Assembly (NCBI GenBank): GCA_934695325.1
Contig: CAKUVD010000003.1
Coordinates: 1-64,000 of the forward strand
From: an uncultured Bacteroidales bacterium
GTDB lineage: Bacteria > Bacteroidota > Bacteroidia > Bacteroidales > UBA932
DNA: 64,000 nucleotides
Reading direction: 5' to 3'
This document shows positions 2,149 to 28,673 of the stretch, one piece after another. The position numbers and the translations under genes are program-made. How positions within the stretch are numbered: the first letter of the stretch is position 1; every line of letters starts with the position of its first letter. The notes under the pieces are model-generated. The model was given only the letters and a program-made list of their open reading frames with translations, did no database searches and was not told the DNA's origin.

Positions 2149-2150
2149 CA

Positions 2151-6051: not shown

Positions 6052-9000
6052 ATGAGTGAAATATTGCCACATAAGACAATTTATCCATCAAATATCTTGG
6101 ATAAGGAAACCGTTTCTTTGGTAAGAAACATCTTTCCCAAGAATATAGTTGACGCGTCCTCTTTACAAGAAGGAGGAAGTCAGACAGATATTGATGGGTA
6201 TATTCGAATATGCGATGAAAAAGGATACGAGAGGGCGACAATCACGGTTCAAATAAAGCACTTAACAAATGCTTCATCTGAAGACATTGCGTTTTACGAT
6301 ATTCCGTCTACATTATATGGATATGCGGGGATACATAAAGGAGAAGTCGTAATATTTATTGCAGGCGAACCAGAAAAGGAACGTTTCTTTTGGAAATATA
6401 TTAGTCTTAATGATGTTAAAGACATTGAGTTATCAGAGAATAACACTCAAAAATCTTTCAGACACCATTTTTATCCTGCGGAGATTTGTTCAAAAGCAAA
6501 TGTGACTGATACAGTCAAATGTTGGAAAGAATTATATGCACAACGAATGAATGCGATTCAGGATGATGAACAGCAGGCAGAGCGATTTGTTAAACTTCAA
6601 AGAGCATCATTTAGTTCAATATCGACCGGACTTCATGGCGTTACAAATTCTCATATATGCAGGTCTCAGTTAGATGAATTAAAGCAATGGATGTTTCAAG
6701 TTCCAAACAACAATGAGAAACGAGTATGTCTTCTCGTAGGAAATGCCGGTGTTGGAAAGTCTGCGCTACTGAAAGAATTCATAGATGCTTTTGATGGTAA
6801 GAGTGCAAAATTTGTGTGCATAAAAGCAGATTCCATTGAAGCTTCGAGCAATCCTATCACACTGGAAAGATTGCGAAACGCAATAACGTATTATAGTTCC
6901 CAATCTGATAAAGTCATTTTGATCGTAGATCAGATTGATGCTCTATCCCAATGCCTGTCAAATGACAGAAACCATTTGAATGCAATACTATCTATACTCT
7001 CATCCCTTAAAGAGTGGCCCAATGTCAGAGCTGTGGTTTCATGCAGAAAGTATGACCTGGAATATGATGCCTCGCTTAATAATATAAAAGACTTATCCGA
7101 AACAATTGAACTTGGAGAATTAACAGACGAAGAAGTAGTTTTTGCATTGAACAAACTTGAGGGCAGTCTTGAAAAAAAGTTGAGCAAAGCTACACTTCAA
7201 ATACTCAAAACAGTACAGACTCTTAATACATTCTGTATTTTATATCGAAGGAATCCGTCTAAACTTGATTTCAGTAATTCAATTGAGCTATACGATGCAT
7301 TATGGAATGAGTATGTGTGCAAAGTTAAAGCACCATTTAATGCCATTGAAATTGAGAAGTCATTGTTTTTTATAGCCACAACAATTCAAAAATCAGAGAC
7401 GTTAAAACCGAGACTTTGTCCAACAACGGAACAACAACGAACATTTGATTATTTAGCAAGTTGTGGAATAATTTCCATAGATGGATGTACTGTTTCATTT
7501 TTTCATCAGACATTCTATGACTACACTCTCGCTCGACAATATGTAGCATCGGGAAAATCATTTGTAGAGGATATTGAAAACGACTTTCAGGGACTTGAGT
7601 TAAGGACAATAGTTAAAGCTATTTTAGAGTATGAATATGGTCATAATGAGACCATGTTCATAAACGATGCACGGCACATCCTTACTTCCCCAAGAACACG
7701 TCTCCATATTAAGTTGTTGACAATATCAATTTTAGCATTTTCAAATGCGCCTCACCATGAAGATAAGAAACTAATTAATGACGTTTGTGGAAAGGATGAG
7801 AAACTTATGGTTTATTTTCTCCGTGGCGTACATGACAATGGATGGTTTGCTACCATTAAGAAGTTGGTTAAGGGAATTCTGCCTAACGTAGAAAAGGAGA
7901 ATCAGACGTTCTTTCCAATCGTGGATTGCCTTTCAAGGTATGCATTCAATAATCCAGATGATGTTTTTAAATTGGTCAAAACAATCAATGATGAAAGAAC
8001 TAGACTCTTTACCATTGCATATATACTCAGAAGTCCTAATGATTATAGAAATGACCGTGTATTGGAGGCATATAATGAGACAAAGCCTCAGAATGTCCAT
8101 TTCGTTGTAGATTTAATTAAGGATGCCTTCAAAACAAATGAAAAATTTGCCTTTACTGAGGCTGAAAGAATATTATCAGAGTATCTTCTATCCGACAAAA
8201 AGGAAAATCGGCATAACGGCTATGAACTCGTAGAAGTACTATTTCCCAGTCTGCTAAGTCACAGGCCAAAAGAATTATTAATGACATTGCACAATAGCAT
8301 CGTGGGAGTAATCGAAAAAACGTCCCATAGTGTCCACCACGGATTTTCCGTATCAGGGGTATTCAGTGACTTATATACGGAGGATTATGTCAGTAAAATA
8401 CTCAATATGTATGAAAATCTGCTTACACAATTTTCTTCCGATGTCCTTCTCATGAGACCCATAGTTAAGAAATTGATGTCTCTGAATAACGAGACATCCG
8501 TTTCTATGGCGTTTGCTTCAATGACGGCGAATCCGTGCCTCTACGATGACATAATCAGACAATTGCAATTAAATACCATAACCATTGAACATCATTTACA
8601 CAGCGATATAGAGTATTTCTACTTAAATATGCTCAAGGCTTGGTATTTAACCTTAGATAAGAAAGATGCAGTTGAATACCAAAATAAGGTCCTGTCATAC
8701 ACATCAACATGCGACTTTATACCCAACAAAGATAGAAGATTTAGTCCATATCTTTATCCAAATCTTTGGCGAGACAAATGGGTCTTAATCTGCAACACTT
8801 TACCCGTAAACGGTGTTACACTGAATGTTAGAAGGTGCTCACAAGCGTTAAAGAGACGATTTGGCGAGCCATATATAGTAGAAAGGCCTGACCACACAAT
8901 TCATGCAGCTGTATGTTGTGGAGGTGTTGTGTCTGATGAAGTTTATCCAAGGTGGCCGATTTCCAATTGGTTAAGTTCATTCCTGAAACTGAATGAGAAG

Positions 9001-10326
9001 GGATGGTGTCGTAAAGGTAGGTATCCGATTAGTCTGAATGCCCATGCTGATGCTTTCAAGAAGTGTGTTGCCAATAATCCCGCCAAGTTTAGAGACTTTG
9101 TGTTCAAACTTACAGCGAGGAATGATATAAAAGACATTTATAAGGAGGCCGGAGTAGTTGGATTGCTTATTGGAGGTAATGAGCCTAATTCATTATGGGA
9201 AATCACAAAACCTTATATCACCATAAATTATGCTACTGAAAATAGTTATTCATTCTGTCAGATTGCGGAATATTATATACAAAATGGGAATGAGCACTTG
9301 GATGATATTTTGAGACTGGCAGAAGCAATCACAAAAATATCATTCGACAAGAAGAGTTCTCTTATAGATTCTTCCCAGAATGATTCAAGCAATTTAGAAA
9401 GAAGAGCTACACATCTTTTAGAGAGCGCTATTAACTCGCCACAAGGACATGCCATGAAGCTGCTGATACGCGCCTGTGCTATCCCAGAAAGAAGAGTACA
9501 GATTTACAATTTTATCAGTAGCACTCTTCCGTATCTGTCAGATTGCTTAAGAACTCTCCCTTTGCATTATCTATATGTAACAGAATATTTTGACGAGACT
9601 TTGTATTTCCCATTGATGAAAGAGATCTTGAAAGAACTAGGCCCTGAGGCTTTAGCAATCAGAGGGGATGCGATACAATGGTGCTATTACCACAAAAATG
9701 ATATTGTGAAAGAATATATTGATAAAGTTGAGTCCAATCCTTTAAGTCAATTAATTCTATCGCAAATATATTTCTATGGTCTTAGTAGTGAAAAGAATCT
9801 CAAAGATTGCAAAGATCGTTTGGAAAGAATACTATCCTTGGGAGACGAGTGTATCATCTCTAAGATCGTTGAGATTTCTATGAAATCATATCGTTTACCT
9901 GAGCTATATGAGTATTCCAAAATCTTTCTTGAGCGTTATGCAACTGATGATAGGGAAAAGGTAGCTGATGCTTATTGTTGGTATTGTAGCGAGTTACCAA
10001 CTGACGCATTTGATTTTTATTGTAGCATAGCAAAAACATGGGCGGGGAAAAGGCACCGCGAAATTCATGAGCAACTTGATTATATAATGAAGTGCGTCTC
10101 GGAATTCCCTAAGAAATGTTATGAATTCATTAAAAGTCAAAATTATTCGGTGATTGATAGCCAATGGTCTGTAGATAACGATGTAGTTAAGGTACTCCTT
10201 GAGATATATAAAAAGTTAAAAGAAGATGATGCTAGAGAATCAATGAATGAGATTATGGACTTATTTGATGAGTATATCTACAAAGGTAACAGAATGGTGT
10301 TGGATGCAGTAGAGAAGATGAATTGA
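6052..10326 (+). CDS. STAND-like NTPase with N-terminal PD-(D/E)XK-type domain (Avs-like architecture)
   Basis: A large single-gene candidate of 1424 residues. Residues about 30-75 read EGGSQTDIDGYI, then TVQIKH, the E...D...QxK spacing of DUF4365/Mrr-like nucleases. A P-loop NTPase follows: LLVGNAGVGKSAL near 230, Walker B VILIVDQIDAL near 290, and an SCRKYD segment near 340 as in NACHT/STAND proteins. From about 450 on the protein is alpha-helical with no motif I can name, and is probably a helical-repeat sensor. This order (effector, STAND motor, helical sensor) is that of Avs anti-phage proteins, which detect phage proteins and then trigger the effector. The gene follows the LlaJI unit by 38 bases with no obvious promoter. 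Identity as an Avs relative is inference. Confidence 0.7.
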   Translation: MSEILPHKTIYPSNILDKETVSLVRNIFPKNIVDASSLQEGGSQTDIDGYIRICDEKGYERATITVQIKHLTNASSEDIAFYDIPSTLYGYAGIHKGEVVIFIAGEPEKERFFWKYISLNDVKDIELSENNTQKSFRHHFYPAEICSKANVTDTVKCWKELYAQRMNAIQDDEQQAERFVKLQRASFSSISTGLHGVTNSHICRSQLDELKQWMFQVPNNNEKRVCLLVGNAGVGKSALLKEFIDAFDGKSAKFVCIKADSIEASSNPITLERLRNAITYYSSQSDKVILIVDQIDALSQCLSNDRNHLNAILSILSSLKEWPNVRAVVSCRKYDLEYDASLNNIKDLSETIELGELTDEEVVFALNKLEGSLEKKLSKATLQILKTVQTLNTFCILYRRNPSKLDFSNSIELYDALWNEYVCKVKAPFNAIEIEKSLFFIATTIQKSETLKPRLCPTTEQQRTFDYLASCGIISIDGCTVSFFHQTFYDYTLARQYVASGKSFVEDIENDFQGLELRTIVKAILEYEYGHNETMFINDARHILTSPRTRLHIKLLTISILAFSNAPHHEDKKLINDVCGKDEKLMVYFLRGVHDNGWFATIKKLVKGILPNVEKENQTFFPIVDCLSRYAFNNPDDVFKLVKTINDERTRLFTIAYILRSPNDYRNDRVLEAYNETKPQNVHFVVDLIKDAFKTNEKFAFTEAERILSEYLLSDKKENRHNGYELVEVLFPSLLSHRPKELLMTLHNSIVGVIEKTSHSVHHGFSVSGVFSDLYTEDYVSKILNMYENLLTQFSSDVLLMRPIVKKLMSLNNETSVSMAFASMTANPCLYDDIIRQLQLNTITIEHHLHSDIEYFYLNMLKAWYLTLDKKDAVEYQNKVLSYTSTCDFIPNKDRRFSPYLYPNLWRDKWVLICNTLPVNGVTLNVRRCSQALKRRFGEPYIVERPDHTIHAAVCCGGVVSDEVYPRWPISNWLSSFLKLNEKGWCRKGRYPISLNAHADAFKKCVANNPAKFRDFVFKLTARNDIKDIYKEAGVVGLLIGGNEPNSLWEITKPYITINYATENSYSFCQIAEYYIQNGNEHLDDILRLAEAITKISFDKKSSLIDSSQNDSSNLERRATHLLESAINSPQGHAMKLLIRACAIPERRVQIYNFISSTLPYLSDCLRTLPLHYLYVTEYFDETLYFPLMKEILKELGPEALAIRGDAIQWCYYHKNDIVKEYIDKVESNPLSQLILSQIYFYGLSSEKNLKDCKDRLERILSLGDECIISKIVEISMKSYRLPELYEYSKIFLERYATDDREKVADAYCWYCSELPTDAFDFYCSIAKTWAGKRHREIHEQLDYIMKCVSEFPKKCYEFIKSQNYSVIDSQWSVDNDVVKVLLEIYKKLKEDDARESMNEIMDLFDEYIYKGNRMVLDAVEKMN

Positions 10327-10390: not shown

Positions 10391-11263
10391 ATGAGCAAAA
10401 TATCAATCCGTTTCTTCGATGACCGTGAGGTCAGGGCTATTTGGGATGAGGAGAATTCCAAATGGTGGTATAGTGTGCTTGATATTGTAGGTGTTCTTAA
10501 TGCGCAGGATGACTATACGAAGAACAGGAACTACTGGAAGTATCTGAAGGGGAAGTTGAAGAAAGATGGCGTCGAACTGGTTAGTGACACTAACCAGTTG
10601 AAAATGCGAGCACCTGATGGAAAGATGAGATTGACTGATGTCCTTGATGCTTCCGGTGTTATAGAATTGGCGAAGAATATGCCTAATAACAAGGCTTCGC
10701 GGTTCATCGAGTGGTTTACTTATGGTGAAGATACTATTGACGGGAAGAGCAAGGCAAAAGCATACACTTTATTCGAGACTTCTCTGCTTGACAGCATTGA
10801 GGTCGGAACTGTAAAAGGACTTCAGCAGATTCACGCTTATCTGTTCGGTGGATTGTATGACTTTGCCGGGCAGATTCGTTCGGTGAATATTTCCAAAGGC
10901 GGATTTACTTTCGCTCCAGTGACGTTTCTTTCGCAGACATTGCATAATATTGAGCAGATGCCTGAATGGTCATTCGATGAGATTGCTGACAAATATGTGG
11001 AGATGAATGTTGCGCATCCGTTCCGCGAAGGCAACGGGCGAACTATGAGAATTTGGTTGGATCTGATTCTGAAGAAGAGGCTTGGGATGTGCGTGGATTG
11101 GAGTCGTATTGATAAATATGCCTATCTTGCAGCAATGGAAAGGAGTGTTGCGGATAGTACAGAAATCAAACGACTTCTGAAAAATGCGCTGACAGATAAG
11201 GTAGATGACAGGGAGATGTTTATGAAAGGGATTGATTATTCGTATTATTACGAGGAACAGTAG
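10391..11263 (+). CDS. BRO-N / Fic domain protein
   Basis: Of its 290 residues, about 1-105 form a BRO-N domain ([13 protein letters not shown], then [13 protein letters not shown]), a DNA-binding module of phage antirepressors. Residues 120-270 are a Fic domain with an intact active site, [12 protein letters not shown] near 210, where the His deprotonates the target hydroxyl and the GNGR loop holds the nucleotide. Fic enzymes usually AMPylate proteins. No inhibitory (S/T)xxxE(G/N) helix is obvious beside the motif, and no separate antitoxin is seen. The gene stands between a STAND gene and a helicase operon and has its own ribosome-site region, so it is probably independent. Confidence 0.85.
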
Positions 11264-11364: not shown

Positions 11365-14300
11365 ATGATAAAAGATATTGAAAACAACATACAAAAACTT
11401 TGGGAGATGCACACTGAGGCACAGGAACAAATTCTGCGTTCTCACGCAATCCCTATTTCCATCATTCCGGATTCCGCCAATATATCCGGTGGAGGAAAAG
11501 TAACGGTTAAAGCCGATGAAACGAATAAGATTGACTCTTTAATCGAAACCTTCTCTCAATGGTTCGGTGTCAAAACTGATGAATTATCGAACGGATCAGG
11601 ATGTTTTTATGCAGACAAGGACAGCATACCATCATCTGAAATCAGAGACAGGCTGTCGTCTACTGCAGAAGAATGCCATATCAAATTCAGGCCTAACCCA
11701 GTCATTGACGGGACGATTTCATCCAATGACACATCGTTAAAATCGTTTACCTCCATACTTGTAGATTCGTCACTGGATTATTCCTTTGATTCAAAAGGAC
11801 GTCTGCAGATTGCATTGTCTGACCTGGACAAATTAAATGCGAAGTTGGAAGATATTGATAACATAAGTCTCAATATTCCTGAAACGGCGAGTGCAATATT
11901 CCAACTGACCCCCAGCCCGGTATATTTTTTAAAGAAAAAATATCCAAACATTAATTGGTCTCATCAAACAAAAGTCATAGTAAACAAACCTGACGATGAA
12001 TTAAAGTTCTTCAGAACGATAGAAGTAGAAAATGGTTACATTGGGGAAAATCTGCTTACTGAATTATCGGAAATAGTCTCGCTGAGGCTTACCGGATACG
12101 AGTTCGAATTTCATGTTCCAGAAGAGATTCGCAACACGTTCAAGCTAGACCCACAGATTACGTTTCCTCAATTTGACAGCAAGAAAGACGCATACGTAGT
12201 AAAAATAACGGTCAAAGAATCTACCCGCGATGACGAGAATGGCCACGAGGATAACTATTTTGATGATATTAATTACACATATACATTCTATCTACACATG
12301 TTCTCAAGATATTTCGGAAAAGAGAATGTACGGTTGAAATCATCAAGGTTCTATTATAAGTACAGTCTTGATGATTACATGGAGAAGAACATTGACGCCG
12401 CCGATGACTGGAAAGATGATTTTTGGGAAAGTCAGCATGTTATTTTCAACGGCAGTGGAATTTCGGTCAGCAGGAATGCTGAATCCATAGGCATTGACTT
12501 TAATTGGAAGCGATGTTCTATTCAAGAGTTGGTGTCTTCCATCCATGAAGTATCTCCAGACGTCATTATTTCATATTATAGCAATCACAAATGTAATATC
12601 GATTTACACGTACAGGACAAATCTCTTGATAAAGCAGAGCAAACACTCAGAGAAAACTTTCCTTCAATACAGGTTATAAGAAACGATTGGAATGGAGACA
12701 TTTATTTCTATCAAGAATATAACAATCTTTATCAACATGACCGTATATATGCAAGCCTTCAACGCCAGATCGATGAACTCGAGCTTGACGAATATACGAT
12801 TGTATTGAACGACATACCCGCAGGAAAAGAGAAATTTATCTTCAGAGCAGACAAAGCTGGTCAAAGAGAATCTCAGATAGAAATTATACAATCCCTGCGT
12901 GGTAAGGATTTTTGCATCGGAAGTGAGGTTAAAATCGGTCGGCTGATCCGAATAGGCTATCCATTGTTGACCTTTGCATTGGATGACAATGACAAAGACA
13001 GAGTTATAGAGGCATTCCGGAGCAATTCCGTACATCAGCTAATCCCCGATATTACTGGCGATCTCGAAAAAATATATCGCTTAAAAAATTCATTCAAAAG
13101 TATTATAACTGGCAAGGGACTCAAAAACAACAATCTTTCGGAATTCATCTTTGATGCCTCTAAGGCAAAGCCAATAAATGAGGTGGACAACTATATCGAT
13201 GAACGCAGCGAGTACTATCGCGAGTTATCGTCACACTTGTTGAATGGCCGCATTAATGATTCACAAAAACAAGCGATAATAAAAACTTTGCTAGCCGAAG
13301 ATTTGGCTTTGATACAAGGCCCTCCCGGCACAGGCAAGTCAACTGCCATTGCAGAGATAATATGGCAACATATAAGGAAAAATCCTAAAGAGAGGATTCT
13401 TCTTACATCAGAGACAAATCTGGCGGTTGACAATGCGATTGACAGGGTTGTCAACACGACTCACAACTTGGTCAAACCTATCCGTATCGGCGATGATACG
13501 AAACTTGTTCCTGAGGGTCGGCAATTCTCTTTGGAAGCGCTGAAACTTTGGGTTGAAAATGGCATAGTGAAAGGTGTGCGCAGAGGATTCTCGGATGAAG
13601 GTAAAGATGAAGAGACAAACGAAGATAAGAAGCAGAAAATCATTCTTGAGAATTGGACCGAGAACATACTCCGAAGGGCAAACAAGGATCAGATCGGAGA
13701 TATTGCCTTTGAATCCTGGTGCAGATATTTATCAAAACCCTCAAAGGAGACTCGCAGTCTGATTTTTAATCAGTATATTCACCATTGTAATGTAATAGGT
13801 GCTACTTGTAGCTCAATTGGGGAGAAGAATACGAAGGGGGCACCTACCGGTTTTTTCAGATGCTTTTGCGAACTTTTTGGCAAAGTGACTACTACGACAG
13901 GGCGGGATGGCAAGGAACGCAAGATTTACAATGGCAATATTTCTTTTGATACAGTAATCCAAGATGAGTCAAGCAAGGCAACACCGGCAGAGTTGTCGTT
14001 GCCTCTGATTTACGGAAAGAAAAATATAATCATCGGAGATCACCGACAACTTCCCCCTCTCTTGGCAAAAGATGAGTTCATATCGTCACTGGACTATATG
14101 TTGCGAGAGTTGAATGATGGAAAAGAGAAACATAAAGTTCAACGGCTTAAGGCTTATGTGGAAGAGCATTTTGACGAGATGGAGATTTCACATTTTCAGA
14201 GACTTTTCGAGAATATAAGTCCAACCCTTAAAGGCATCTTCAATCGGCAGTATCGAATGCATTGGGCAATAAACGATGCTATTGCACAATTTTACGAAGA

Positions 14301-14994
14301 AGATGGCGGACTGGAATGCGGATTGGATAAGGAACAGGCCGACAATCCAGACATCAGCAATCCCAATAGCCGTTACCACGGAATTGAGATTGATGGCCTC
14401 ATAAGACCAACGGATCATATTATCTGGCTGGACACCGAGACACCAGAGATTGATGATGGTACATCGAAGGTGAATTTCGGGGAGATAGAAGTAGTTAGAG
14501 CAATATTGAATGAATTCAAAAAGTCCGACTCATTCCAACGTTATCAAAACCTTTGGAAGAATGATGAAGACAAGCAGATTGGCTTGATAAGCTTTTATGG
14601 CAAGCAGATAAAACATTTGTGGGAACTAAGCAAAGAGTTCCCAACTCTCCCGATGGAAGTCAACACCGTTGACAGATTCCAAGGGATGGAAAGAAATATC
14701 ATTATAGTGTCAATGGTTCGCAGTTCATGCAAAGCCGCCGGCAAAGAGCAACTGCCAGATTATGAACTATATGGCGAGAGAGGTTATCCTAAACAAAACA
14801 CCTTGGGTTTTGCTCAATCGCCTAACCGATTGAATGTCGCACTGTCAAGAGCAAAGCGCCTGTTGATTATCATTGGCAACAGCGAGCTTTTTAGGCAGAA
14901 AAGGATTTATGACAATGTGTACAAAACAATCAAAGATAGCAAATGTGGTAATATAATAAAATGTGATTTGGAATGGATTGGCAAAAGATTATAG
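11365..14994 (+). CDS. UPF1-like superfamily 1 helicase (first gene of DarT/macro operon)
   Basis: A helicase of 1209 residues. The first 600 residues show no motif I recognise and contain several acidic beta/alpha segments. The C-terminal half is a full SF1B helicase: Q-region SQKQAII, Walker A QGPPGTGKST near 652, motif Ia TSETNLAVDNA, motif II QDESSKA near 868, motif III GDHRQLPPLL near 891, motif IV RQYRMHW, motif V TVDRFQGMERNII near 1104, and motif VI NVALSRAKR near 1156. It should unwind DNA or RNA 5'-3'. Its last 22 bases overlap the next gene in another frame, so the two are translationally coupled and probably work together. Confidence 0.85.
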   Translation: MIKDIENNIQKLWEMHTEAQEQILRSHAIPISIIPDSANISGGGKVTVKADETNKIDSLIETFSQWFGVKTDELSNGSGCFYADKDSIPSSEIRDRLSSTAEECHIKFRPNPVIDGTISSNDTSLKSFTSILVDSSLDYSFDSKGRLQIALSDLDKLNAKLEDIDNISLNIPETASAIFQLTPSPVYFLKKKYPNINWSHQTKVIVNKPDDELKFFRTIEVENGYIGENLLTELSEIVSLRLTGYEFEFHVPEEIRNTFKLDPQITFPQFDSKKDAYVVKITVKESTRDDENGHEDNYFDDINYTYTFYLHMFSRYFGKENVRLKSSRFYYKYSLDDYMEKNIDAADDWKDDFWESQHVIFNGSGISVSRNAESIGIDFNWKRCSIQELVSSIHEVSPDVIISYYSNHKCNIDLHVQDKSLDKAEQTLRENFPSIQVIRNDWNGDIYFYQEYNNLYQHDRIYASLQRQIDELELDEYTIVLNDIPAGKEKFIFRADKAGQRESQIEIIQSLRGKDFCIGSEVKIGRLIRIGYPLLTFALDDNDKDRVIEAFRSNSVHQLIPDITGDLEKIYRLKNSFKSIITGKGLKNNNLSEFIFDASKAKPINEVDNYIDERSEYYRELSSHLLNGRINDSQKQAIIKTLLAEDLALIQGPPGTGKSTAIAEIIWQHIRKNPKERILLTSETNLAVDNAIDRVVNTTHNLVKPIRIGDDTKLVPEGRQFSLEALKLWVENGIVKGVRRGFSDEGKDEETNEDKKQKIILENWTENILRRANKDQIGDIAFESWCRYLSKPSKETRSLIFNQYIHHCNVIGATCSSIGEKNTKGAPTGFFRCFCELFGKVTTTTGRDGKERKIYNGNISFDTVIQDESSKATPAELSLPLIYGKKNIIIGDHRQLPPLLAKDEFISSLDYMLRELNDGKEKHKVQRLKAYVEEHFDEMEISHFQRLFENISPTLKGIFNRQYRMHWAINDAIAQFYEEDGGLECGLDKEQADNPDISNPNSRYHGIEIDGLIRPTDHIIWLDTETPEIDDGTSKVNFGEIEVVRAILNEFKKSDSFQRYQNLWKNDEDKQIGLISFYGKQIKHLWELSKEFPTLPMEVNTVDRFQGMERNIIIVSMVRSSCKAAGKEQLPDYELYGERGYPKQNTLGFAQSPNRLNVALSRAKRLLIIIGNSELFRQKRIYDNVYKTIKDSKCGNIIKCDLEWIGKRL

Positions 14995-17900
14995 ACAGCT
15001 GTGAGCTTATTTATGCGTCAAAACCGCAAGATGAACAATTGCGTAAATGGAGTCTAAAAACTACCAGATGCGATGTGTCTGGATATGATGCATTCCCTCT
15101 TGATGATATTGACATTGTAATATGCTCCGTGCTGAAAGGGCATGATGGGAGATTGGCAGAATTTGATTTGGCAACTATACTTGGATTTAATGTTGTTGAT
15201 AACTTCGACTCTTGCCCCAAAAGGTATGCAGATAAGGCAGAATTAACTCTATTCCGAAAAATCGCTCAATCGGTCATAGATTGGGGTCTCATACTTCGGG
15301 AGAAAACCGATTGTGCCCCAGCGATTTATTCATTGACCGCAATCGGCCAAATCGCCCTGGATCAAAATCAGAAGTTCAAGTTTTATACAGGGCACATCAA
15401 CCTTTATGAAAACTTCGGAATAAATGCCGACGGAGCCCAAGAGGGTTCCTTCTTCCCTTTTCAGTCGGCGTTGAACATTCAATCGGCCCTGTCCGGAAAA
15501 ACAGATCTGGCATATGAGAATGTCCCGAATAATTTCAATATACTGGATGATTCGGAACTGGCCAAGAGGATATCCTCACAATCAAACGGAGTTTACAATT
15601 TCTTTTCAATCAGACAGACATCATGGTATGATATAACGTCATGTAATGTCGATTATAGAATCTACTGTTATGATAATGAAAGTTATCCGTTGATATTTGT
15701 TGATGGTCGACTAAGCCGGGAAACAACGGAACTGTTAAACCGGCCATATAACGCCGCCCTCAAGTCAAATAAAGTTGAATGGGGAAATTATCTCCACCTT
15801 TTGAACGATGATGACGTCATATTAAGCTACGAATCACTGACACCGTTTCTGGATATACTTTCACCCAAGGACATATTAAACTTCAGTCACCGGGTCAAAT
15901 GGGATGACGCTGATTTATTTGATTATTTTGTCAAAGCAGCAGACGCTTCCGACTGGAGAAACATATCTATGTTATCTCCAGTGCCCATAATAGAGAACAA
16001 CATAGGCAAAACATGTTTTTGGGATTGGATTGTGCTCTCAAAGAGACTGTCTCCAGAATTCGTAATTCAGCATTCATCGGATTACAATTGGGATTTCAAT
16101 CTGATCTCGAATAGAGACGATTTTGAAGTTGACGATTACAAGAAACTTTTAGGCAATGAAAAGCTAAAGGGGACCGATTGGGATTGGGAGATATTGCTGC
16201 CTATACTTGGGCAGCAGTATGTTGTTGACAATATTGATCGTCTTGATTTTGATCTTAATGAATTTACGCGCAATGAGATTGCAACAGCATCATTGCTGAT
16301 ACCTCGATACCCCGAAAAGAATTGGGACTTTAAGTTTATATCTGCCAATTACGATTTACCTTTCATAATAGAACATATCAGCGATTTTGAAACTGAAGAT
16401 GATAACGGGAAGCATCACAACAGCCTCGACCTTCTTGTTGTCCTGAAACGGGCTTGTTCATCTGCGGACTATGTCGCCATGTTCTGCGATTCTGATAAAG
16501 TGCGCCAAGTCTATTTAGACAATCATTACACTTTCCCCGGTTATTCTGCCAACACCGAAAGATTCGTCTGGACTGACAGTCTGATCAAATGGTGCGAATC
16601 ATTGGAAATAATCCAGTGGAACGGTGGACGTTATGTGCCAGGATTCGAGGTCAATCCAGCTCTGATATGGGACAATAGTTTTTTTGCAAATCACAGTGGG
16701 AAAATCACAAATGGTCGAGGTTTTACACATATATCATCAAAGATAACCGATTGCCGAATTGTAGATCAATACAGCGATTTTCAATGGGATTGGGGTGCAA
16801 TCTCTTCCAACATTAATCTTACTTCCAACGAAGATTTCGTAAAGAAGCATATTCAAGACTTTAATTTGAATGTCCTTCTGCCAAATCTGAAAGTTGAATT
16901 TCTGACAGACTTATTTGAAAACAACAATTTGGCGACTCTCTTGGACGAGAATAGCTGGATATTTACGACCAATATTGCGCCGGTTGAATTTGTCAGAAGA
17001 CACCTTGACTATAAATGGGAATGGCACATTTTGACAAAGCGATTCTATGCCACGTTGAATATCAATGCCATCGGCAATCCGAAATGGGTAGGAAAATGGG
17101 ATTGGGTGTTTCTTACAAAAAACCTTGATGTTGACAAGATTCTCGCCAACATAGATGACTACAAGGAGTATTGGGATTGGGCTCAATTGACGGAGAAACT
17201 CGATAAAGAGTTTATTTTAAATAATTTAGGTGATTATTATGAATACTGGGACTGGGAACATTTGCTGGACAAAAGGCTAGATTGTTCGGATCTGTCTTTC
17301 TCAAATTATTTGCCAGCTATTGCCGCCTGTCTTTCAAGGATGGCAGAAGAAGATTGCAGTAATTATTGGGCAATCATCACGCGCAAATTCACATACGATG
17401 AACTTGATGATTTAATCAGGATATCATTCAATATGCATATGACCGATATTTTCAAGTGGGACTATCTAGATTTTTACAATCGGGACGAATTCAACCTCAG
17501 AGAATATCTTGAATCTGATATAGAACTGATTGATTGGCACGCGATTTCTGGGTGCAACAAGATAGAAAAAGAATTCAGTTGGGACGAGAAGCTTTTCAGT
17601 GAGAAAATCTGGTTTGACGATGTTTCTCTTTTCTTGAAAGACGAAGACTTCAAATGGGATTTTAAGAACTTGTCGAAAGTACAGATATTTTATTCCAACA
17701 GCAAGGTTCTTACAATCAAACCTCAACTCTGGGATTGGAGCTATATATGCTCAACTAGCCCGATATTCTTGAAAGGAAAAGACTTTATGAAAACATTTAG
17801 GAGGTTTTCTAGATATCTCGACTATCAAGTGCTGTCTTCAAGGCAGGATACCGGTCTAAATGAATCGCTCATTGAAGAGAGGATATCAATGAATTGGGAT

Positions 17901-20294
17901 TGGGACGCTCTCTCGATGAACCACTCTATAATGTTTTCAATCAAGTTCATCAAAGAACAAAAAGATAAGCCATGGAATTGGCAGGCATTGTCTGCCAGAA
18001 ATGATATTAAATTAGACAATGAGTCTCTATACGAGCTCTCGGATAAAGACTGGTCCTGGGAAGCAATCTCGAATAGGACAGATCTAGTGTACGACGCGGA
18101 TTTTATAAGCCATTTCATTGACAAGCCTTTGAATTGGCTCAAGATGTCCAGTCTTAACTCCTTCATACCTAATTCTTTCACATTGTCGAGACTTAAGGGT
18201 GTACAACTTAATTGGAAGGCAATATCATCTAATCCTCACTTAGACAAAGACGTTCTATGGGATTATAGGGATCTGCTCGATTGGTATGCTGTCACAAGGA
18301 ATATTGTCAACTGTTCAGATTCCGATTTTCTCACGAAATATAAGGACTATCTAGACTGGAATTTTATCTCCAACAACCCCGAATTTAATGTAACGGACAA
18401 TAATTTGCTCCTTTTTAAGGATAAAGTCATTTGGGGTAAGATTAATCAGCGTAATGATTTTAAGATATCTGAAAGAACACTTGAGTTATTCACAGATGAA
18501 CTTGATTGGAGCAAGATATCCGAATCACATGAGATTATATTTACAGAAGCCTTGATAGAAAAATACAGGGGAAACTGGGATTGGACAAAACTTCGCAAGA
18601 ACAGTCAAGTCGTTGATCGTTTGTCGGATACGCTTTCTAAATACAAAGCGGGGTTCAACTGCTCAGAATTTATTGAGCAATTTACAGAAAGAAAGCCATA
18701 TATTTATCACTTTACACACATGTTTCCCAATGCCCTTAACATCATCAAAGGCAGAAAGATACTTAGCAGAAACAAGTCGTTAGGCCACTTTGCAAATGCT
18801 GCTGGCTCAAACGTAAATAGAAGAGGAACTGCTCACGATTATGCGAGATTCTACTATAGACCACAGACCCCAACTCAATTCTATAATGAGTGCCTTGGAA
18901 TGGATAAAGAGTCGGGGGAATGGAGAACATGGTGGTATGACGGAGAATATTACAAGAAATGGAAAACTTATTATCCTCAAGCCTTGAGGTTGGAATTGCC
19001 TAAATGCCCAATGCCCGTTTTCTTCAAATTCTCTCTTGAAGAAGTTATTGCCAAAATGCCAGATATATGCTACTACAGCACTGGTAATATGCAAACAGAT
19101 AGGGCGGAGGTGATCAAGGTGACAGATAATCCCAATAGGCTGAATGCACAAGATCTCTATTCAACAGTTAAAGATGGTGTAGAGGTCTATAAACAATACT
19201 CTCAACAAGAATTCTTAGTGTTGAATGAATTTGATTTTTCAAAGTTAAACGACTTCCAAATAATATGTTATGATTCCGAACAAGCCAACATTCTTAAATC
19301 TCAATTGCATGGGGATCCTATATGCGATAAAATCGAGGCAGGCGGATATGATATCTATCACCGCAACAACCGACCACTAACCATAACGGAAGATGATTTT
19401 TCTATTTCTATCTCATCGGGATATCGTGAAGACAGCGCATGCCTTTCGGTTCGCGGAGATGGCATCAGTTCCGTTGTAGTTCTTAATCCTGATAACATTA
19501 AACGCGAAACCTCCTCCTGCATATCTGCATATCCAAGCATCTCTCTGAAGAAACCACTTTGTAATGTGGAGGTGGTATTCACTGATGAACGAGGCCGAGA
19601 ATGGATCGTGTACAAACAGCCAGATTTAATTGCATCTTCAATAGCTATTGACGAATCGCCTTTAGGCCATTTCTCAAATGAGAAAGGACTCAGAGACCTC
19701 TTCAATTCTCAAGTTCGACACTATACCATTAAGGAACATACAAGAATGGTGTGTGAACAATTTATGAAGTACTTTAGTTCGGCTAATGTGCCTATTAGAC
19801 GTGATCTTCTGCTCGTTTTCTTGACGCTTCATGATATTGGAAAGCCTATTGCAGAGCAAGCGGGAAATAGAGAAGAACAGTATGAGTATACCTCTAACAT
19901 CATTAGGAAAATATCGCTTGATTGCTGTGGAAACCATTATACAGAAAACGATCGCCAAATTCTCTTGTCGTTGCTTCAGGGCGACTATATAGGAGATTAT
20001 TTCAAGGGAATCGTTAATGTCGACAAGACTGTCGATCAATTGTCAAAGCTTGCATTGATGGCAAATATGCGACTTTCCGATTACTTATATCTTTACATGA
20101 TATATTATCAGTGTGATGCAGCCTCTTACACCGCTGATGCCGGAGGTTATAAATATCTTGAACCACTATTCGAGTATGACGATCCTTTAACAAAGACTTT
20201 TGATTCAGATGAAGGACTTATACGGATGTCAGATAATTATTGGAAAAAGTATATAGAATTAAAGAACAACGTCTATGATAGAGAAAATCTGTAA
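14973..20294 (+). CDS. Giant fusion: Trp-rich repeats, DarT-like ADP-ribosyltransferase, HD domain
   Basis: A 1773-residue protein in four parts. Residues 1-340 are unrecognised. Residues about 345-1205 hold roughly twenty degenerate units of the form W-D/E-W-x2-L/I-S/T, for example NWDWDALSMN, KWDWVFLTKN and YWDWAQLTEK. Residues about 1240-1450 resemble DarT: YHFTHMFPN (H-x-T...N NAD pocket), HDYARFYYRPQTP, and TDRAEVIKV carrying the likely catalytic Glu. Residues about 1585-1720 form an HD domain (KEHTRMV, then LHDIGKP). DarT enzymes ADP-ribosylate bases in single-stranded DNA. The repeats could sense or bind a target, and the HD domain may act on nucleotides or nucleic acid; both are inference. 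Overlaps of 22 bases upstream and 20 bases downstream place it in a strict operon. Confidence 0.8.
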   Translation: MDWQKIIDSCELIYASKPQDEQLRKWSLKTTRCDVSGYDAFPLDDIDIVICSVLKGHDGRLAEFDLATILGFNVVDNFDSCPKRYADKAELTLFRKIAQSVIDWGLILREKTDCAPAIYSLTAIGQIALDQNQKFKFYTGHINLYENFGINADGAQEGSFFPFQSALNIQSALSGKTDLAYENVPNNFNILDDSELAKRISSQSNGVYNFFSIRQTSWYDITSCNVDYRIYCYDNESYPLIFVDGRLSRETTELLNRPYNAALKSNKVEWGNYLHLLNDDDVILSYESLTPFLDILSPKDILNFSHRVKWDDADLFDYFVKAADASDWRNISMLSPVPIIENNIGKTCFWDWIVLSKRLSPEFVIQHSSDYNWDFNLISNRDDFEVDDYKKLLGNEKLKGTDWDWEILLPILGQQYVVDNIDRLDFDLNEFTRNEIATASLLIPRYPEKNWDFKFISANYDLPFIIEHISDFETEDDNGKHHNSLDLLVVLKRACSSADYVAMFCDSDKVRQVYLDNHYTFPGYSANTERFVWTDSLIKWCESLEIIQWNGGRYVPGFEVNPALIWDNSFFANHSGKITNGRGFTHISSKITDCRIVDQYSDFQWDWGAISSNINLTSNEDFVKKHIQDFNLNVLLPNLKVEFLTDLFENNNLATLLDENSWIFTTNIAPVEFVRRHLDYKWEWHILTKRFYATLNINAIGNPKWVGKWDWVFLTKNLDVDKILANIDDYKEYWDWAQLTEKLDKEFILNNLGDYYEYWDWEHLLDKRLDCSDLSFSNYLPAIAACLSRMAEEDCSNYWAIITRKFTYDELDDLIRISFNMHMTDIFKWDYLDFYNRDEFNLREYLESDIELIDWHAISGCNKIEKEFSWDEKLFSEKIWFDDVSLFLKDEDFKWDFKNLSKVQIFYSNSKVLTIKPQLWDWSYICSTSPIFLKGKDFMKTFRRFSRYLDYQVLSSRQDTGLNESLIEERISMNWDWDALSMNHSIMFSIKFIKEQKDKPWNWQALSARNDIKLDNESLYELSDKDWSWEAISNRTDLVYDADFISHFIDKPLNWLKMSSLNSFIPNSFTLSRLKGVQLNWKAISSNPHLDKDVLWDYRDLLDWYAVTRNIVNCSDSDFLTKYKDYLDWNFISNNPEFNVTDNNLLLFKDKVIWGKINQRNDFKISERTLELFTDELDWSKISESHEIIFTEALIEKYRGNWDWTKLRKNSQVVDRLSDTLSKYKAGFNCSEFIEQFTERKPYIYHFTHMFPNALNIIKGRKILSRNKSLGHFANAAGSNVNRRGTAHDYARFYYRPQTPTQFYNECLGMDKESGEWRTWWYDGEYYKKWKTYYPQALRLELPKCPMPVFFKFSLEEVIAKMPDICYYSTGNMQTDRAEVIKVTDNPNRLNAQDLYSTVKDGVEVYKQYSQQEFLVLNEFDFSKLNDFQIICYDSEQANILKSQLHGDPICDKIEAGGYDIYHRNNRPLTITEDDFSISISSGYREDSACLSVRGDGISSVVVLNPDNIKRETSSCISAYPSISLKKPLCNVEVVFTDERGREWIVYKQPDLIASSIAIDESPLGHFSNEKGLRDLFNSQVRHYTIKEHTRMVCEQFMKYFSSANVPIRRDLLLVFLTLHDIGKPIAEQAGNREEQYEYTSNIIRKISLDCCGNHYTENDRQILLSLLQGDYIGDYFKGIVNVDKTVDQLSKLALMANMRLSDYLYLYMIYYQCDAASYTADAGGYKYLEPLFEYDDPLTKTFDSDEGLIRMSDNYWKKYIELKNNVYDRENL

Positions 20295-20970
20295 TGACAA
20301 CATTTTCAACTCCAAAGCACAGACCATAGTCAACACTGTTAACTGTGTCGGTGTAATGGGAAAAGGAATTGCTTTGGTTTTCAAATTGAGATACCCCGAC
20401 ATGTTTGCCGAATATGCCGAGTTATGCAAGAAACATCTGATTATCCCTGGCAAGTTATGGCTCTATAAAGGGGAGAAAGACGCCCCTTGGGTGCTTAATT
20501 TCCCAACGAAATTTCATTGGAAATATCCCAGCAAGATAGAGTATATTGAACAGGGATTGCAAAAATTTATAGACACATATAAAGACAAAGGTATCACTTC
20601 CATAGCCTTTCCAATGCTTGGAACCCATAATGGTGGACTGGACAAGACGGAGGTCCTCAAACTGATGGAGGAGTATCTCAACAAATGCGACATTCCTATA
20701 GAAATCTACGACTATGACCCGAATGCCCCTGATGATCTGTTTGAGGAATTTAAGTCTAAATGGAACGGGATACCTAAGGACATGCTCAAGTCTCAGACTG
20801 GCATTAGGACCCAAAAGCAAATCGACACCATCGACCATGCGGTTAATTCTGACAGCATAAGGTCTATGATATCTTTGATAGATTATCCCGGTATAGGAAT
20901 AACTACTATGCTGAAATGCTTCAAGCTTGTCATGAAGGGCTCCACGCCTGAAAGCACCCTGTTTGACTGA
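20275..20970 (+). CDS. DarG-like macrodomain protein
   Basis: A macrodomain of the ALC1/DarG type covers residues 1 to about 155 of 231: IVNTVNCVGVMGKGIAL near 19, then AFPMLGTHNGGL near 112. In DarTG the macrodomain removes ADP-ribose from DNA and the C-terminal part binds DarT. Here the C-terminal 75 residues (DTIDHAVNSD, then IDYPGIGITTM) are short compared with standalone DarG. The start lies 20 bases inside the upstream DarT-containing gene. The natural reading is an antidote that reverses or restrains the fused toxin domain. A stem-loop follows the gene and ends the operon. Confidence 0.85.
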   Translation: MIEKICNDNIFNSKAQTIVNTVNCVGVMGKGIALVFKLRYPDMFAEYAELCKKHLIIPGKLWLYKGEKDAPWVLNFPTKFHWKYPSKIEYIEQGLQKFIDTYKDKGITSIAFPMLGTHNGGLDKTEVLKLMEEYLNKCDIPIEIYDYDPNAPDDLFEEFKSKWNGIPKDMLKSQTGIRTQKQIDTIDHAVNSDSIRSMISLIDYPGIGITTMLKCFKLVMKGSTPESTLFD

Positions 20971-21541: not shown

Positions 21542-22450
21542 ATGGACACACCAAGAAGAACCTACCGCAAAATCTGCCAGCATTGCGGAAAAGAATTCAT
21601 CGCCTACACATCAGCGACAGCCTACTGCTCGCACCGCTGCTCCGGACTTGCCGACAAGCTCCGCAAGCGTAACGACCGGCTCAAATCCACCACACAGGAA
21701 GTCCGGGAACTTCAGCGCCAGGCCCTGCTCGACAAGAACTTCCTGACACTCACAGATGCCGCCAGGCTGATGCAAATCTCACGCACCACCCTCTACCGCA
21801 TCATAGAACTCAACAGCATCCCGCTCAAACGCTTCACCGACCGCACAATCCGCATCTCCAGAGAGGACCTCGACAAGGCGGCGAACCGACAAGTAACACT
21901 CGAAGACACCACCATCACCGAGAAAGAGGCCATCCTCACCAACTGGATGACCAAGGAGCAGATAATAGAGGAATACGGCATCACCTTGAGCTGGCTCTAC
22001 TCCACCACCAAACGCCTCGGCATCCAGCCACGCATCATCGGCTGCAAGAACTTCTACGAAAAGACACAGATGGACAAGATCTTCACCCGTGAAGACTACG
22101 CCGATCCCGAAAAATGGTACACCTTCGACCAGCTCCGCGAGCAAACCGGAATGCTCACCGAATCCATCTGTGACTTCTGCAAGGCGCACAAAATCACCCG
22201 TGAGCGCAAGAACGGCATAACCTACGTCGCCAAACGCCAATGGGACAACGCCAGAGGCACAAACATCGACACCGACAAATTCATCACAATGAAAGAAATC
22301 ACCGCCACCTACGGCCTCTCACGCAACCACCTCTACACAATTTTCAAGGAGAACGGAATCGAAAGAGTAAAATTTGGTAATTTTGTATACTTCAACAGAG
22401 AAGAGGTCCACACCCTTCTCACAAACAGAAAGCAAAATGGGCGCAGTTAA
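21542..22450 (+). CDS. Multi-HTH protein with N-terminal zinc site, beside integrase
   Basis: The N-terminus of this 302-residue protein has a CQHCGKEF...YCSHRC cluster (about 11-34), probably a zinc ribbon. At least three excisionase-type HTH units follow: LTLTDAARLMQISRTTLYR near 68, a segment near 145 (WMTKEQIIEEYGIT), and ITMKEITATYGLSRNHLYT near 250. Such proteins sit directly before tyrosine recombinases in Bacteroidota elements and may act as recombination directionality factors or regulators. It overlaps the integrase start by 14 bases, so the two are coupled. The GC content is clearly above that of the left arm. Confidence 0.75.
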   Translation: MDTPRRTYRKICQHCGKEFIAYTSATAYCSHRCSGLADKLRKRNDRLKSTTQEVRELQRQALLDKNFLTLTDAARLMQISRTTLYRIIELNSIPLKRFTDRTIRISREDLDKAANRQVTLEDTTITEKEAILTNWMTKEQIIEEYGITLSWLYSTTKRLGIQPRIIGCKNFYEKTQMDKIFTREDYADPEKWYTFDQLREQTGMLTESICDFCKAHKITRERKNGITYVAKRQWDNARGTNIDTDKFITMKEITATYGLSRNHLYTIFKENGIERVKFGNFVYFNREEVHTLLTNRKQNGRS

Positions 22451-23540
22451 AGTGACACTCCGAAAACGGGAATACGCCAGCGGCAAAGTCTCCCTCTACC
22501 TCGACTTCTACCCGGCCATCCGCAACCCCAGGACAATGCAGATGACACGCCGCGAATACCTCGGCATCTACATAATGAAAAGTCCGCGCACAGCAGCGGA
22601 CCGCAGAGTCAATGCCGCCAAGCTCAAGCAGGCCGAAGCCATCCGCGCCCAGAGAGAAATATCCCTAATCAACGAACAATACGGATTTCTCGACAAAGGC
22701 AAGGGAATGATGAACGTCCTTGAATATTTCTACTCCATCCTACACGGCCACGACAAGAAATGGCGCATAGTCTATGAACACTTCAACATATTCGTAAAAG
22801 GCCAATGCAGCTTCGACGAACTCACCGTAGATTTCTGCAACAAGTTCCGTGACTACCTCGGCACCACCACACGCATCAAGAGCGACCGTCTCAAACTCTC
22901 CCAGAACTCAGCCGCAGGGTACTGGAGCACATTCCGCGCATTCCTTGCCATCGCCTTCAAGGAAGGCTACCTGAAAGAGAATGTCAATGACTATCTCGAC
23001 AAGATAGAAACCCGGGAGACAAAGCGGGAATACCTCACGCAAGAAGAACTCCAGAAACTTGCGGACACTCCTTGCGACTACCCTGTTCTCAAATCCGCCT
23101 CCCTTTTCTCCTGCCTCACCGGGCTCCGATTGAGCGACATTCTCCAGCTCGAATGGCATCACATCCAGGACTACCCTTCCGGAGGCAAATGCATCCGCAT
23201 CAAGACAGAAAAAACCGACACCGAGGCCACAATCCCCATCAGTGACCAGGCTCTCGAACTCTGCGGCACTCCATCAGAAGGCAAAGTCTTCAAAGGCCTC
23301 ACAAGGCAGCTCGTCAACGGACGGCTGAAACCCTGGATAAGATCAGCAGGAATCGACAAATACATCACCTTCCATTGCTTCCGCCACACTTACGCCACCC
23401 TTCTCATAGCCGGAGGAGCCGACATCTACACCGTCAGCAAGATGCTTACCCACAAGAACGTCAGCACCACCCAGATATACGCCGACCTTGTCAATGAGAA
23501 AAAGAAGCAGGCCTCCGAAATCATAAAAATCAAGGAATAG
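22437..23540 (+). CDS. int: Tyrosine recombinase (element integrase)
   Basis: With the ATG at 22437 the protein has 367 residues, beginning MGAVKVTLRKREYASGK, the normal N-terminus of Bacteroidota integrases with an arm-binding beta domain. A SAM-like core-binding domain occupies about 90-180. The catalytic residues are present: Arg in TGLRLSD near 228, Lys in RIKTEKT near 257, HxxR in HCFRHTYAT near 313, His in THKNVSTTQ near 338, and the nucleophile Tyr in QIYADL near 347. It should catalyse integration and excision at the 96-bp repeats. The start lies inside the preceding HTH gene. Confidence 0.92.
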   Translation: MGAVKVTLRKREYASGKVSLYLDFYPAIRNPRTMQMTRREYLGIYIMKSPRTAADRRVNAAKLKQAEAIRAQREISLINEQYGFLDKGKGMMNVLEYFYSILHGHDKKWRIVYEHFNIFVKGQCSFDELTVDFCNKFRDYLGTTTRIKSDRLKLSQNSAAGYWSTFRAFLAIAFKEGYLKENVNDYLDKIETRETKREYLTQEELQKLADTPCDYPVLKSASLFSCLTGLRLSDILQLEWHHIQDYPSGGKCIRIKTEKTDTEATIPISDQALELCGTPSEGKVFKGLTRQLVNGRLKPWIRSAGIDKYITFHCFRHTYATLLIAGGADIYTVSKMLTHKNVSTTQIYADLVNEKKKQASEIIKIKE

Positions 23541-27315: not shown

Positions 27316-28670
27316 ATGAAATAGAAGCCCAAATAATCGACCTATTTTCTGGACTAGGAGGAATCCGAATCGGATTTGAACAGGCCCTTGCCAAACGAGG
27401 GCTAAAAGGCAAATGCGTGTTCACCTCTGAAATAAAGCCATCGGCGATAAAAGCCCTGAATGAGAACTTTCCCGGAGAAAATATAAAAGCCACAGACATA
27501 ACAACCATCAAAAAGCAGGATGTACCTGATTTTAAAGTTTTGCTTGGCGGTTTCCCTTGTCAAGCATTCAGCAGTGCCGGCTTACAAAAAGGCTTTGCTG
27601 ACACAAGAGGAACATTGTTTTTCGATGTACAAAGAGTATTATCCGAACATCTGAAAACCGTCGATGGATTCATCCTTGAAAATGTAGAAGGGCTTGTAAC
27701 ACACGACCGAGAAAACAAATCCGATAAAACAGGAAGAACTATAAACACGATTATGCACGTACTCAAAGACGTACTTGGGTTTAATGCGGAATTCATCGTG
27801 CTCAATGCGGCGGATTTTGGCGTACCTCAATACAGAAAACGTGTTTATATCGTAGGCTGCAAAAAGAAATTCGGGAAAGTCAATCTTAAATTTAAGGGTC
27901 AGCAGGAACAACCAGTAGAAAACGTCCTTGAAACAGGTCTTCCTACATTAAAAAGTGACTTCTCAAAGAAAATTCTTAGACATTTCTCCGTAGAGTCACT
28001 TAATGGCAAAGCCCTGAAAGACAAACGTGGAGGAAAATCCAATATACATAGTTGGGAATTCGATTTCAAAGGGAAAATATCCGACGAGGAAAAGGCTCTC
28101 CTTAATGCCCTTCTTCTCGCAAGAAGAAAGCGTAAGTGGGCAGAAGAAATCGGCATCACATGGATGGATGGTATGCCCTTGACAACAGAACAAATCAGGA
28201 CATTCTTTGACAGACCAAATCTCCAGCAGATGCTCGACGACTTGACAGATAAAAAATACCTTGTCTATGAGCATCCCAAAAAGCAACTTGTGCATCAAGA
28301 CTCCAACGGAAACCGCTACACAACAAGAGTTCCGGACAAGACCAAGGCAAAAGGCTATAATATCGTCACAGGAAAGCTTTCATTCGAGATAAGCAGTTTC
28401 TTGGACAAAAGCAAACCGGCAAAAACCATTGTAGCAATGGATATGGGCAATATCGGAGTTCTTGACAATGACGGAATACGCCACCTGACACTCCGAGAAG
28501 GCTTAAGATTGTTTGGATATCCAGATTCGTACAGTTTGAGGCCATTCGAGAACTCACGACGGAACATAAGGCTTGGCTACGACCTTATCGGTAATTCAGT
28601 ATGTGTTCCGGTGATAGAAGCCATCGCTGAACGGCTTTTAGACAGAATCAACCCACAAAAGAAGAAATAA
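27316..28670 (+). pseudogene. m5C DNA methyltransferase with a broken start
   Basis: All m5C motifs are present: LFSGLGGIRIGF just after the start, GGFPCQAFSSAG near residue 77, ENVEGL near 121, FGVPQYRKRVYIVG near 170, and a C-terminal LIGNSVCVPV. But the only ATG at the right place (27316) reads ATG-AAA-TAG. The methyltransferase frame (MTase residues IEAQIIDLFSG) is one base off and has no start codon between its upstream TGA at 27312 and motif I. One extra A would give MKIEAQIID. The next in-frame start, GTG at 27417, would lose the AdoMet motif. Either expression needs a slip or non-standard start, or the gene is dead. It heads a restriction-like operon. Confidence 0.75.
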
Positions 28671-28673
28671 TAT

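Follow-up and report, generated by a model that had tools for sequence, protein, structure and literature searches.

What does a bacterium encode in three overlapping plus-strand genes, for a helicase, a 1773-residue multidomain protein (the giant) and a macrodomain protein, such as those at positions 11,365 to 20,970 of a 64,000-nucleotide stretch (the window) of contig CAKUVD010000003.1 from an uncultured Bacteroidales bacterium? A first-pass annotation had proposed an enlarged DarTG-type anti-phage system, in which a DarT toxin fused to a repeat sensor and a second catalytic domain is coupled to a helicase. Our analysis confirmed the observation itself, the 22-nucleotide (helicase and giant) and 20-nucleotide (giant and macrodomain) overlaps being exact in the open reading frame (ORF) listing of the window, and partly supported the interpretation. 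We consider it fairly probable that the genes together make up an immune system that acts by ADP-ribosylation and is related to DarTG, gated by the helicase and by the repeats of the giant, with the macrodomain as eraser. This reading starts from gene order, folds, conserved presumed catalytic residues, co-divergence and neighbouring defence genes.

The DarT domain of the giant matched Pfam PF14487 with 37.3 bits, above the curated cut-off of 22.5, and in the preset fold test a DarT fold was predicted and supported by a structure match, which bears out the assignment made earlier from motifs. The glutamate of its SQQEFLV segment, Glu1413, is found in 51 of 51 aligned rows, and aligns with Glu160 of Thermus DarT, which we take to be the catalytic glutamate. 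An equivalent of Thermus DarT Arg51 was also sought, and was dropped, position 1284 being arginine in only 27 of the 51 rows. The adjoining macrodomain protein matched Pfam PF01661 (64.1 bits, 1.4e-17), PDB entry 5m3i (2e-33) and the PADLOC DarG model (E-value 5.5e-56, covering model positions 4-145 of 329 only; the PADLOC library carries no curated cut-off), while its score against the NCBIfam DarG equivalog was 185.2 bits, below the cut-off of 250 (model positions 5-151 of 338). Judged from these matches, the protein has the macrodomain of DarG only, without the DarG C-terminal region, and its description as DarG-like holds for that part. Its Lys79, presumably the catalytic lysine of DarG/TARG1-type macrodomains, has a lysine counterpart in every row printed of the alignment, including the group that accompanies a second type of HD domain (IKDDW/IKEDW).

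The helicase matched Pfam AAA_11 (1.2e-36) and AAA_12 (2.3e-36), the PDB structure of SMUBP-2 (1.2e-23) and also those of NAM7/UPF1, DNA2 and SEN1, and the PADLOC MkoA model (5.6e-97). Five motifs were located, beginning at residues 652 (GPPGTGKS), 866 (QDESSKA), 891 (GDHRQLPP), 962 (QYRMHW) and 1157 (NVALSRA), in agreement with the UPF1-like motifs first read by eye; no fold was predicted for the N-terminal ~600 residues. The Walker A pattern is kept in 38 of 39 helicases, the remaining one reading GPPGSGKS.

Between its winged-helix and DarT parts, the giant carries an array of W-x-W repeats (W-repeats). Residues 310-1235 contain 12 W-x-W motifs, whereas 2000 shuffles averaged 2.4 and never exceeded 9; W-W distances of 2 and 25 are commonest, followed by 26, 50 and 52. 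A sequence search of the giant against PDB gave no match, its folds showing up only by structure. The model of residues 1-1199, with which the array was folded, had a mean predicted local distance difference test score of 87, and Foldseek found no significant PDB match for it. The other motifs named at first pass, DarT-like and HD, are likewise present in the sequence. Among 5.8 billion proteins, 264 homologues of the giant were found, of which the best 120 were listed; the DarT-bearing protein of relatives measures ~1470-2010 residues where the gene is whole. A DarT domain was present in 86 of 90 hits of the W-repeat search, in which only proteins of ~975-3100 residues were visible. The idea that W-repeats are exclusive to this system was rejected, tblastn finding them elsewhere; by sequence they are a broader repeat type. 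In the jumbo Bacillus phage G, for example, a cluster of small proteins (gp556-gp563; L071, 1561-6118) has W-repeat-like matches resembling the array of the giant. One relative (P0013, 1946 residues) appears by eye to carry an extra, leucine-rich-repeat-like insert of ~170 residues between beta-sandwich and HD domain.

Table 1. Features of the three-gene operon, in window coordinates (residue numbers refer to the encoded protein).
Feature	Position	Strand	Remarks
SF1 (superfamily 1) helicase	11365..14994	+	1209 residues; UPF1/SMUBP2/DNA2/SEN1 group
Helicase core			residues ~630-1173 of the 1209-residue protein
Walker A motif GPPGTGKS of helicase	13318..13341	+	motif search
1773-residue multidomain protein	14973..20294	+	winged helix, W-repeat array, DarT, beta-sandwich, HD
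MarR-type winged-helix fold	15090..15371	+	residues 40-133
W-repeat array	15900..18677	+	residues 310-1235; a pair of short helices every ~25 residues
DarT ADP-ribosyltransferase domain	18678..19361	+	residues 1236-1463
Codon of Glu1413 in SQQEFLV	19209..19211	+	aligned opposite Thermus DarT catalytic-Glu segment
Beta-sandwich domain	19368..19634	+	residues 1466-1554; Ig/FN3-like arrangement, weak matches only
HD domain (type 1)	19638..20291	+	residues 1556-1773; H1589, H1620-D1621, D1715
DarG-type macrodomain protein	20275..20970	+	231 residues
Codon of Lys79 in PTKFHW	20509..20511	+	presumed catalytic lysine

Relatives of the operon were recovered by an alignment-based scan of genome contigs, which yielded 45 loci, among them one with DarT but without W-repeats (L038); a single-protein scan of the same contigs gave none. 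The helicase is present in 39 of the 39 genome loci where it would be visible; for the macrodomain the figure is 40 of 41. All three genes occur together in 36 of the 37 genome loci covered on both sides (L039 being the exception), so that the co-occurrence looked for at first pass was found in other genomes. Left out of the counts were L047 (a viral-collection copy of L008), L048 (an ordinary compact DarTG pair), L038 and L058 (DarT on other scaffolds) and, for co-occurrence, the loci cut by contig ends (L007, L015, L017, L027, L029, L035 and L036). Spacing was assessed in 37 complete loci, comprising 36 genome loci and L047: helicase and giant genes lie at most 100 nucleotides apart in 32, and giant and macrodomain genes in 36. 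The outliers are L018, L031, L040 and L044, with interrupted ORFs, and L026, with a 104-nucleotide overlap when the first start codon is taken.

The components also diverge together. Mean pairwise identity is highest for the macrodomain (0.65), followed by the helicase core (0.53), DarT (0.42) and the W-repeats (0.29). Among 36 sequences (34 genome loci, L057 and the window), which also furnished the helicase tree, distances correlated most strongly between W-repeats and helicase (r 0.93), then between DarT and W-repeats (0.82), DarT and helicase (0.81), and macrodomain and the others (0.48-0.56); each value was reached in 0 of 999 permutations, and shared ancestry is still contained in all of them. 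The system is rare: of 395 genomes from the phylum to which L004 (Bacteroides gallinarum) belongs, 4 match, L004 itself included and also G377, whose DarT has another scaffold; the class of L014 likewise gave 4 matches in 395, counting L014 and one already seen. Named loci are mostly Bacteroidota, and those assigned to Bacillota or Saccharibacteria (L001, L021, L025 and L045), all metagenome-assembled contigs, may be misbinned.

The HD domain had been proposed as a second catalytic domain fused to the toxin. Its predicted fold matches HD proteins, the nearest being a tRNA processing enzyme, and H1589, H1620, D1621 and D1715 are invariant in 13 aligned rows; conversely, Pfam HD scores of 13.4 and 16.1 bits lie under the gathering cut-off of 22, a profile search against PDB gave no match, and Cas3-type HD hits were weak and under cut-off (PADLOC 0.0068; NCBIfam 8.3e-4 for L001). 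The fold prediction thus favours an HD domain in the window, whereas its fusion to the toxin does not hold across relatives. Of the 45 genome loci, 21 have an HD domain, which comes in two sequence types. Type 1 is fused to the giant in nine (L004, L005, L009, L011, L012, L017, L020, L021 and L035), fused to the macrodomain in two (L001 and L003) and encoded as its own gene in three (L002, L016 and L029), a PIN domain accompanying it in L002 (PIN_4, 3.2e-22) and L016. Type 2 is fused to the giant in seven (L006, L007, L008, L010, L023, L025 and L028; Pfam HD 2.6e-7 in L010). HD is therefore not a fixed second catalytic domain. Five HD states on the 36-row helicase tree, ten inner branches of which are weak, need 12 changes, whereas 200 shuffles averaged 17.0 and none came down to 12, which argues that HD moves, but not at random. 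Furthermore, in the six genome loci where type 2 HD occurs and a macrodomain is visible, the macrodomains form a separate subfamily, 42-48% identical to that of the window, compared with at least 52% in the remaining loci that have W-repeats; the type of HD is therefore linked to the macrodomain. In a database search with type 1 HD, the best 120 of 160 hits, in proteins of ~250-790 residues and with partners read by eye from the rows, included 74 with a macrodomain, 45 with PIN and one with neither, so that HD, joined to one or the other in 119 of 120, belongs to the pathway.

Other modules vary in a similar way. An S1 RNA-binding domain was not found by Pfam scan in the window's own helicase; by BLAST, the helicases of 13 genome loci carry it as a fusion, with confirmation where Pfam was run in L004, L010, L013 and L024, and a failure of Pfam to find it in L032 and L042. 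In L007, L008 and L006 (there as two ORFs) it is encoded by a separate upstream gene. Nine loci have a Ppx/GppA phosphatase joined to the helicase, and in L027 one stands at the contig start. Proteins with an A1S_2505 N-terminal domain abut the operon in L004 (4754-5491), L005 (4722-5453), L042 (4396-5832) and L033 (15101-16036), the last also carrying a PIN domain.

From these features we infer an anti-phage role, perhaps with the repeats as sensor, as proposed at first pass. In uninfected cells the helicase would form a complex with the W-repeats of the giant, holding DarT inactive or off its substrate. Abnormal nucleic acid arising during phage infection, loaded and moved by the helicase, would free DarT, which would use NAD+ to ADP-ribosylate single-stranded nucleic acid, at DNA thymines or, quite possibly, RNA bases. 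The mark would halt phage replication or expression, and the macrodomain would strip it, limiting damage to the host. HD, which in relatives is elsewhere or absent, some combining PIN or Ppx/GppA, may supply a second processing activity, as a phosphohydrolase or nuclease acting on marked nucleic acid or nucleotides.

The rarity of the system is consistent with this reading, as is a direct fusion outside it, a UvrD-type helicase with a C-terminal W-repeat array (P0170, 1140 residues). Neighbouring genes also point to defence. Among 90 of 170 neighbours picked from 30 loci and searched against PADLOC at an E-value of 1e-10, the best 25 of 226 families included type I restriction enzymes (3), pAgo (3), the BREX proteins BrxL (2) and PglZ (2), type I methyltransferases (2) and defence reverse transcriptases (2), among others, as raw counts without a background control. 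In L024 (315-9998) and L033 (1-9992), a type I methylase (821 and 881 residues, respectively) and HsdR lie directly before the helicase; with gaps of only ~3-19 nucleotides, restriction genes and DarT may belong to a single operon. A 699-residue protein directly 5' of the helicase has a Piwi domain in L002 (4224-6320; 4.5e-15) and a BLAST relative in L020 (4339-6435).

In the window itself, positions 1093-6013 encode a C5 cytosine methyltransferase, an AAA protein that resembles McrB and carries a B3 domain of NgoFVII type, and a 738-residue protein with no more than a weak restriction-endonuclease match, a trio that looks like a restriction system. It is followed by a 1424-residue NACHT/STAND-type NTPase (6052-10326), probably a separate defence protein, and by a Bro-N and Fic (NmFic-type) protein (10391-11263; PADLOC candidate-defence family PDC-S04, 8.1e-161) that ends ~100 nucleotides before the helicase. 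Downstream of the operon lie a tyrosine integrase (22410-23540) and a possible second restriction-modification pair (27417-29561), comprising a second C5 methyltransferase and a protein with weak DpnII/BanI-like matches under cut-off.

Several findings weigh against a helicase-gated immune system, in addition to the ancestry within the correlations and the uncontrolled neighbour counts. Glu1413 was placed by alignment with Thermus DarT, through a segment not significant alone. W-repeats also occur in Bacillus phage G and plasmid-borne proteins, where the repeat part alone was matched. No HD was seen in 24 of the 45 loci. L039 and a plasmid relative, L068, have helicase and giant and, by tblastn in the available DNA, no macrodomain; the toxin-antitoxin prediction that such loci carry a dead DarT was rejected, both keeping the glutamate intact. 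These two loci qualify the proposal of an enlarged DarTG system. Finally, DarT has other partners, so the helicase is not its only possible controller. In L038 (8396-11607) DarT is fused to Sel1/TPR-type repeats next to a macrodomain gene, with no helicase by tblastn, and in L058 (8695-15851, minus strand) a sacsin/HSP90-ATPase-like protein bears DarT and type 1 HD, the DarT-HD effector here being attached to a different controller; a macrodomain joined to the N-terminal domain of HsdM comes next.

Four known systems come closest to the operon. It shares with DarTG a DarT fold with its glutamate motif and an adjoining DarG-type macrodomain gene, and would work like DarTG, but fails two DarTG features, a full DarG and a compact two-gene pair: here DarT is one domain of a far larger protein behind a helicase gene, the macrodomain protein is without the DarG C-terminal region, and relatives carry optional HD, PIN, S1 and Ppx/GppA modules. 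The MkoA match recalls Mokosh (MkoA/MkoB, MkoC), although the effector here is an ADP-ribosyltransferase. MkoB, presumably a kinase and the partner of MkoA, was not among the PADLOC matches listed for eight window proteins (for the methyltransferase, the best 25 of 62). By analogy the system also resembles Hachiman (HamAB), where, according to excerpts of its description, the helicase restrains and releases the effector, in that case the nuclease HamA rather than DarT. A further analogy is CmdTAC, in which, according to passages of PMC11618068, an ADP-ribosyltransferase kept in check by partners blocks phage by marking RNA; the window differs in its DarT-type domain, macrodomain and helicase, and general library searches of the window proteins scanned recognised no chaperone such as that of CmdTAC. 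PADLOC-DB and NCBIfam gave partial matches only (DarT, weak Cas3-type HD, DarG macrodomain and related helicases). In line with the first-pass annotation, no description of this gene set stood among the titles and abstract openings listed by searches of an open-licence library, which omits most subscription papers.

S1 and PIN partners point to RNA as much as to DNA, and together with a helicase of UPF1 type and an HD fold resembling a tRNA processing enzyme they suggest an RNA target. We entertain, tentatively, a prokaryotic RNA-surveillance immune system, in which the UPF1-like helicase, bearing S1 in many relatives, would detect aberrant phage transcripts and license DarT on RNA bases such as uracil; the macrodomain would reverse the mark, and HD, PIN and Ppx/GppA modules in different operon proteins would process marked RNA or nucleotides. 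Nonsense-mediated decay relies on UPF1 and a PIN nuclease, and such a system, if real, would be its functional parallel. We know of no DarT-type enzyme that acts on RNA, and none stood among the records listed by literature searches.

About as tentative is a form of the main reading limited to DNA, in which the helicase would follow phage DNA, thymidines would be marked by DarT wherever single-stranded DNA lies exposed, and that DNA would be cut by HD, remotely Cas3''-like. The characterised DarT proteins do mark DNA, according to parts of PMC11833690 and PMC11618068, and the weak Cas3-type HD hits, MarR-like winged helix and type I restriction neighbours agree with this, whereas the S1 and PIN modules of relatives are RNA-type. 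Thermus aquaticus DarG, moreover, reverses uracil-ADP-ribose, if less efficiently than human TARG1 (as stated in sections of PMC13036486); a DarG-type eraser is thus compatible with RNA without being an argument for it, and leaves DNA unsettled.

It is improbable that the operon serves mobile elements as a toxin-antitoxin module for stability (addiction), with DarT poisoning cells that lose the element, the macrodomain as antitoxin, and helicase, repeats and HD as accessories. A DarT-macrodomain core as in DarTG, the integrase downstream in the window and the integrase and transposases near the plasmid copy would suit it, but a helicase in all 39 genome loci where it would be visible and a ~900-residue array diverging with it are much for such a module, and L039 and L068 lack a detectable macrodomain. 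Least probable is host RNA (or DNA) repair or quality control, with helicase, S1, PIN, HD and macrodomain working on ends that are damaged or ADP-ribosylated and DarT as a regulated marker rather than a toxin: S1 on or beside the helicase, PIN and Ppx/GppA partners, the HD fold nearest a tRNA processing enzyme and a Deinococcus PARG operon that also encodes an HD-phosphatase/kinase protein, discussed as RNA/DNA repair in portions of PMC11833690, speak for it, but the rarity, the defence-gene neighbours and the many HD-state changes on a tree with some weak forks are more like an immune system.

If the helicase- and repeat-gated immune system is the correct reading, DarT would serve, besides its role as a small toxin, as effector in a large, modular immune machine, whose accessory parts move between its proteins. 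The operon would then offer a tractable system for investigating how nucleic-acid ADP-ribosylation is switched on in infection and whether DarT acts on RNA, and would help to ask what function an HD enzyme has in a pathway based on ADP-ribose.

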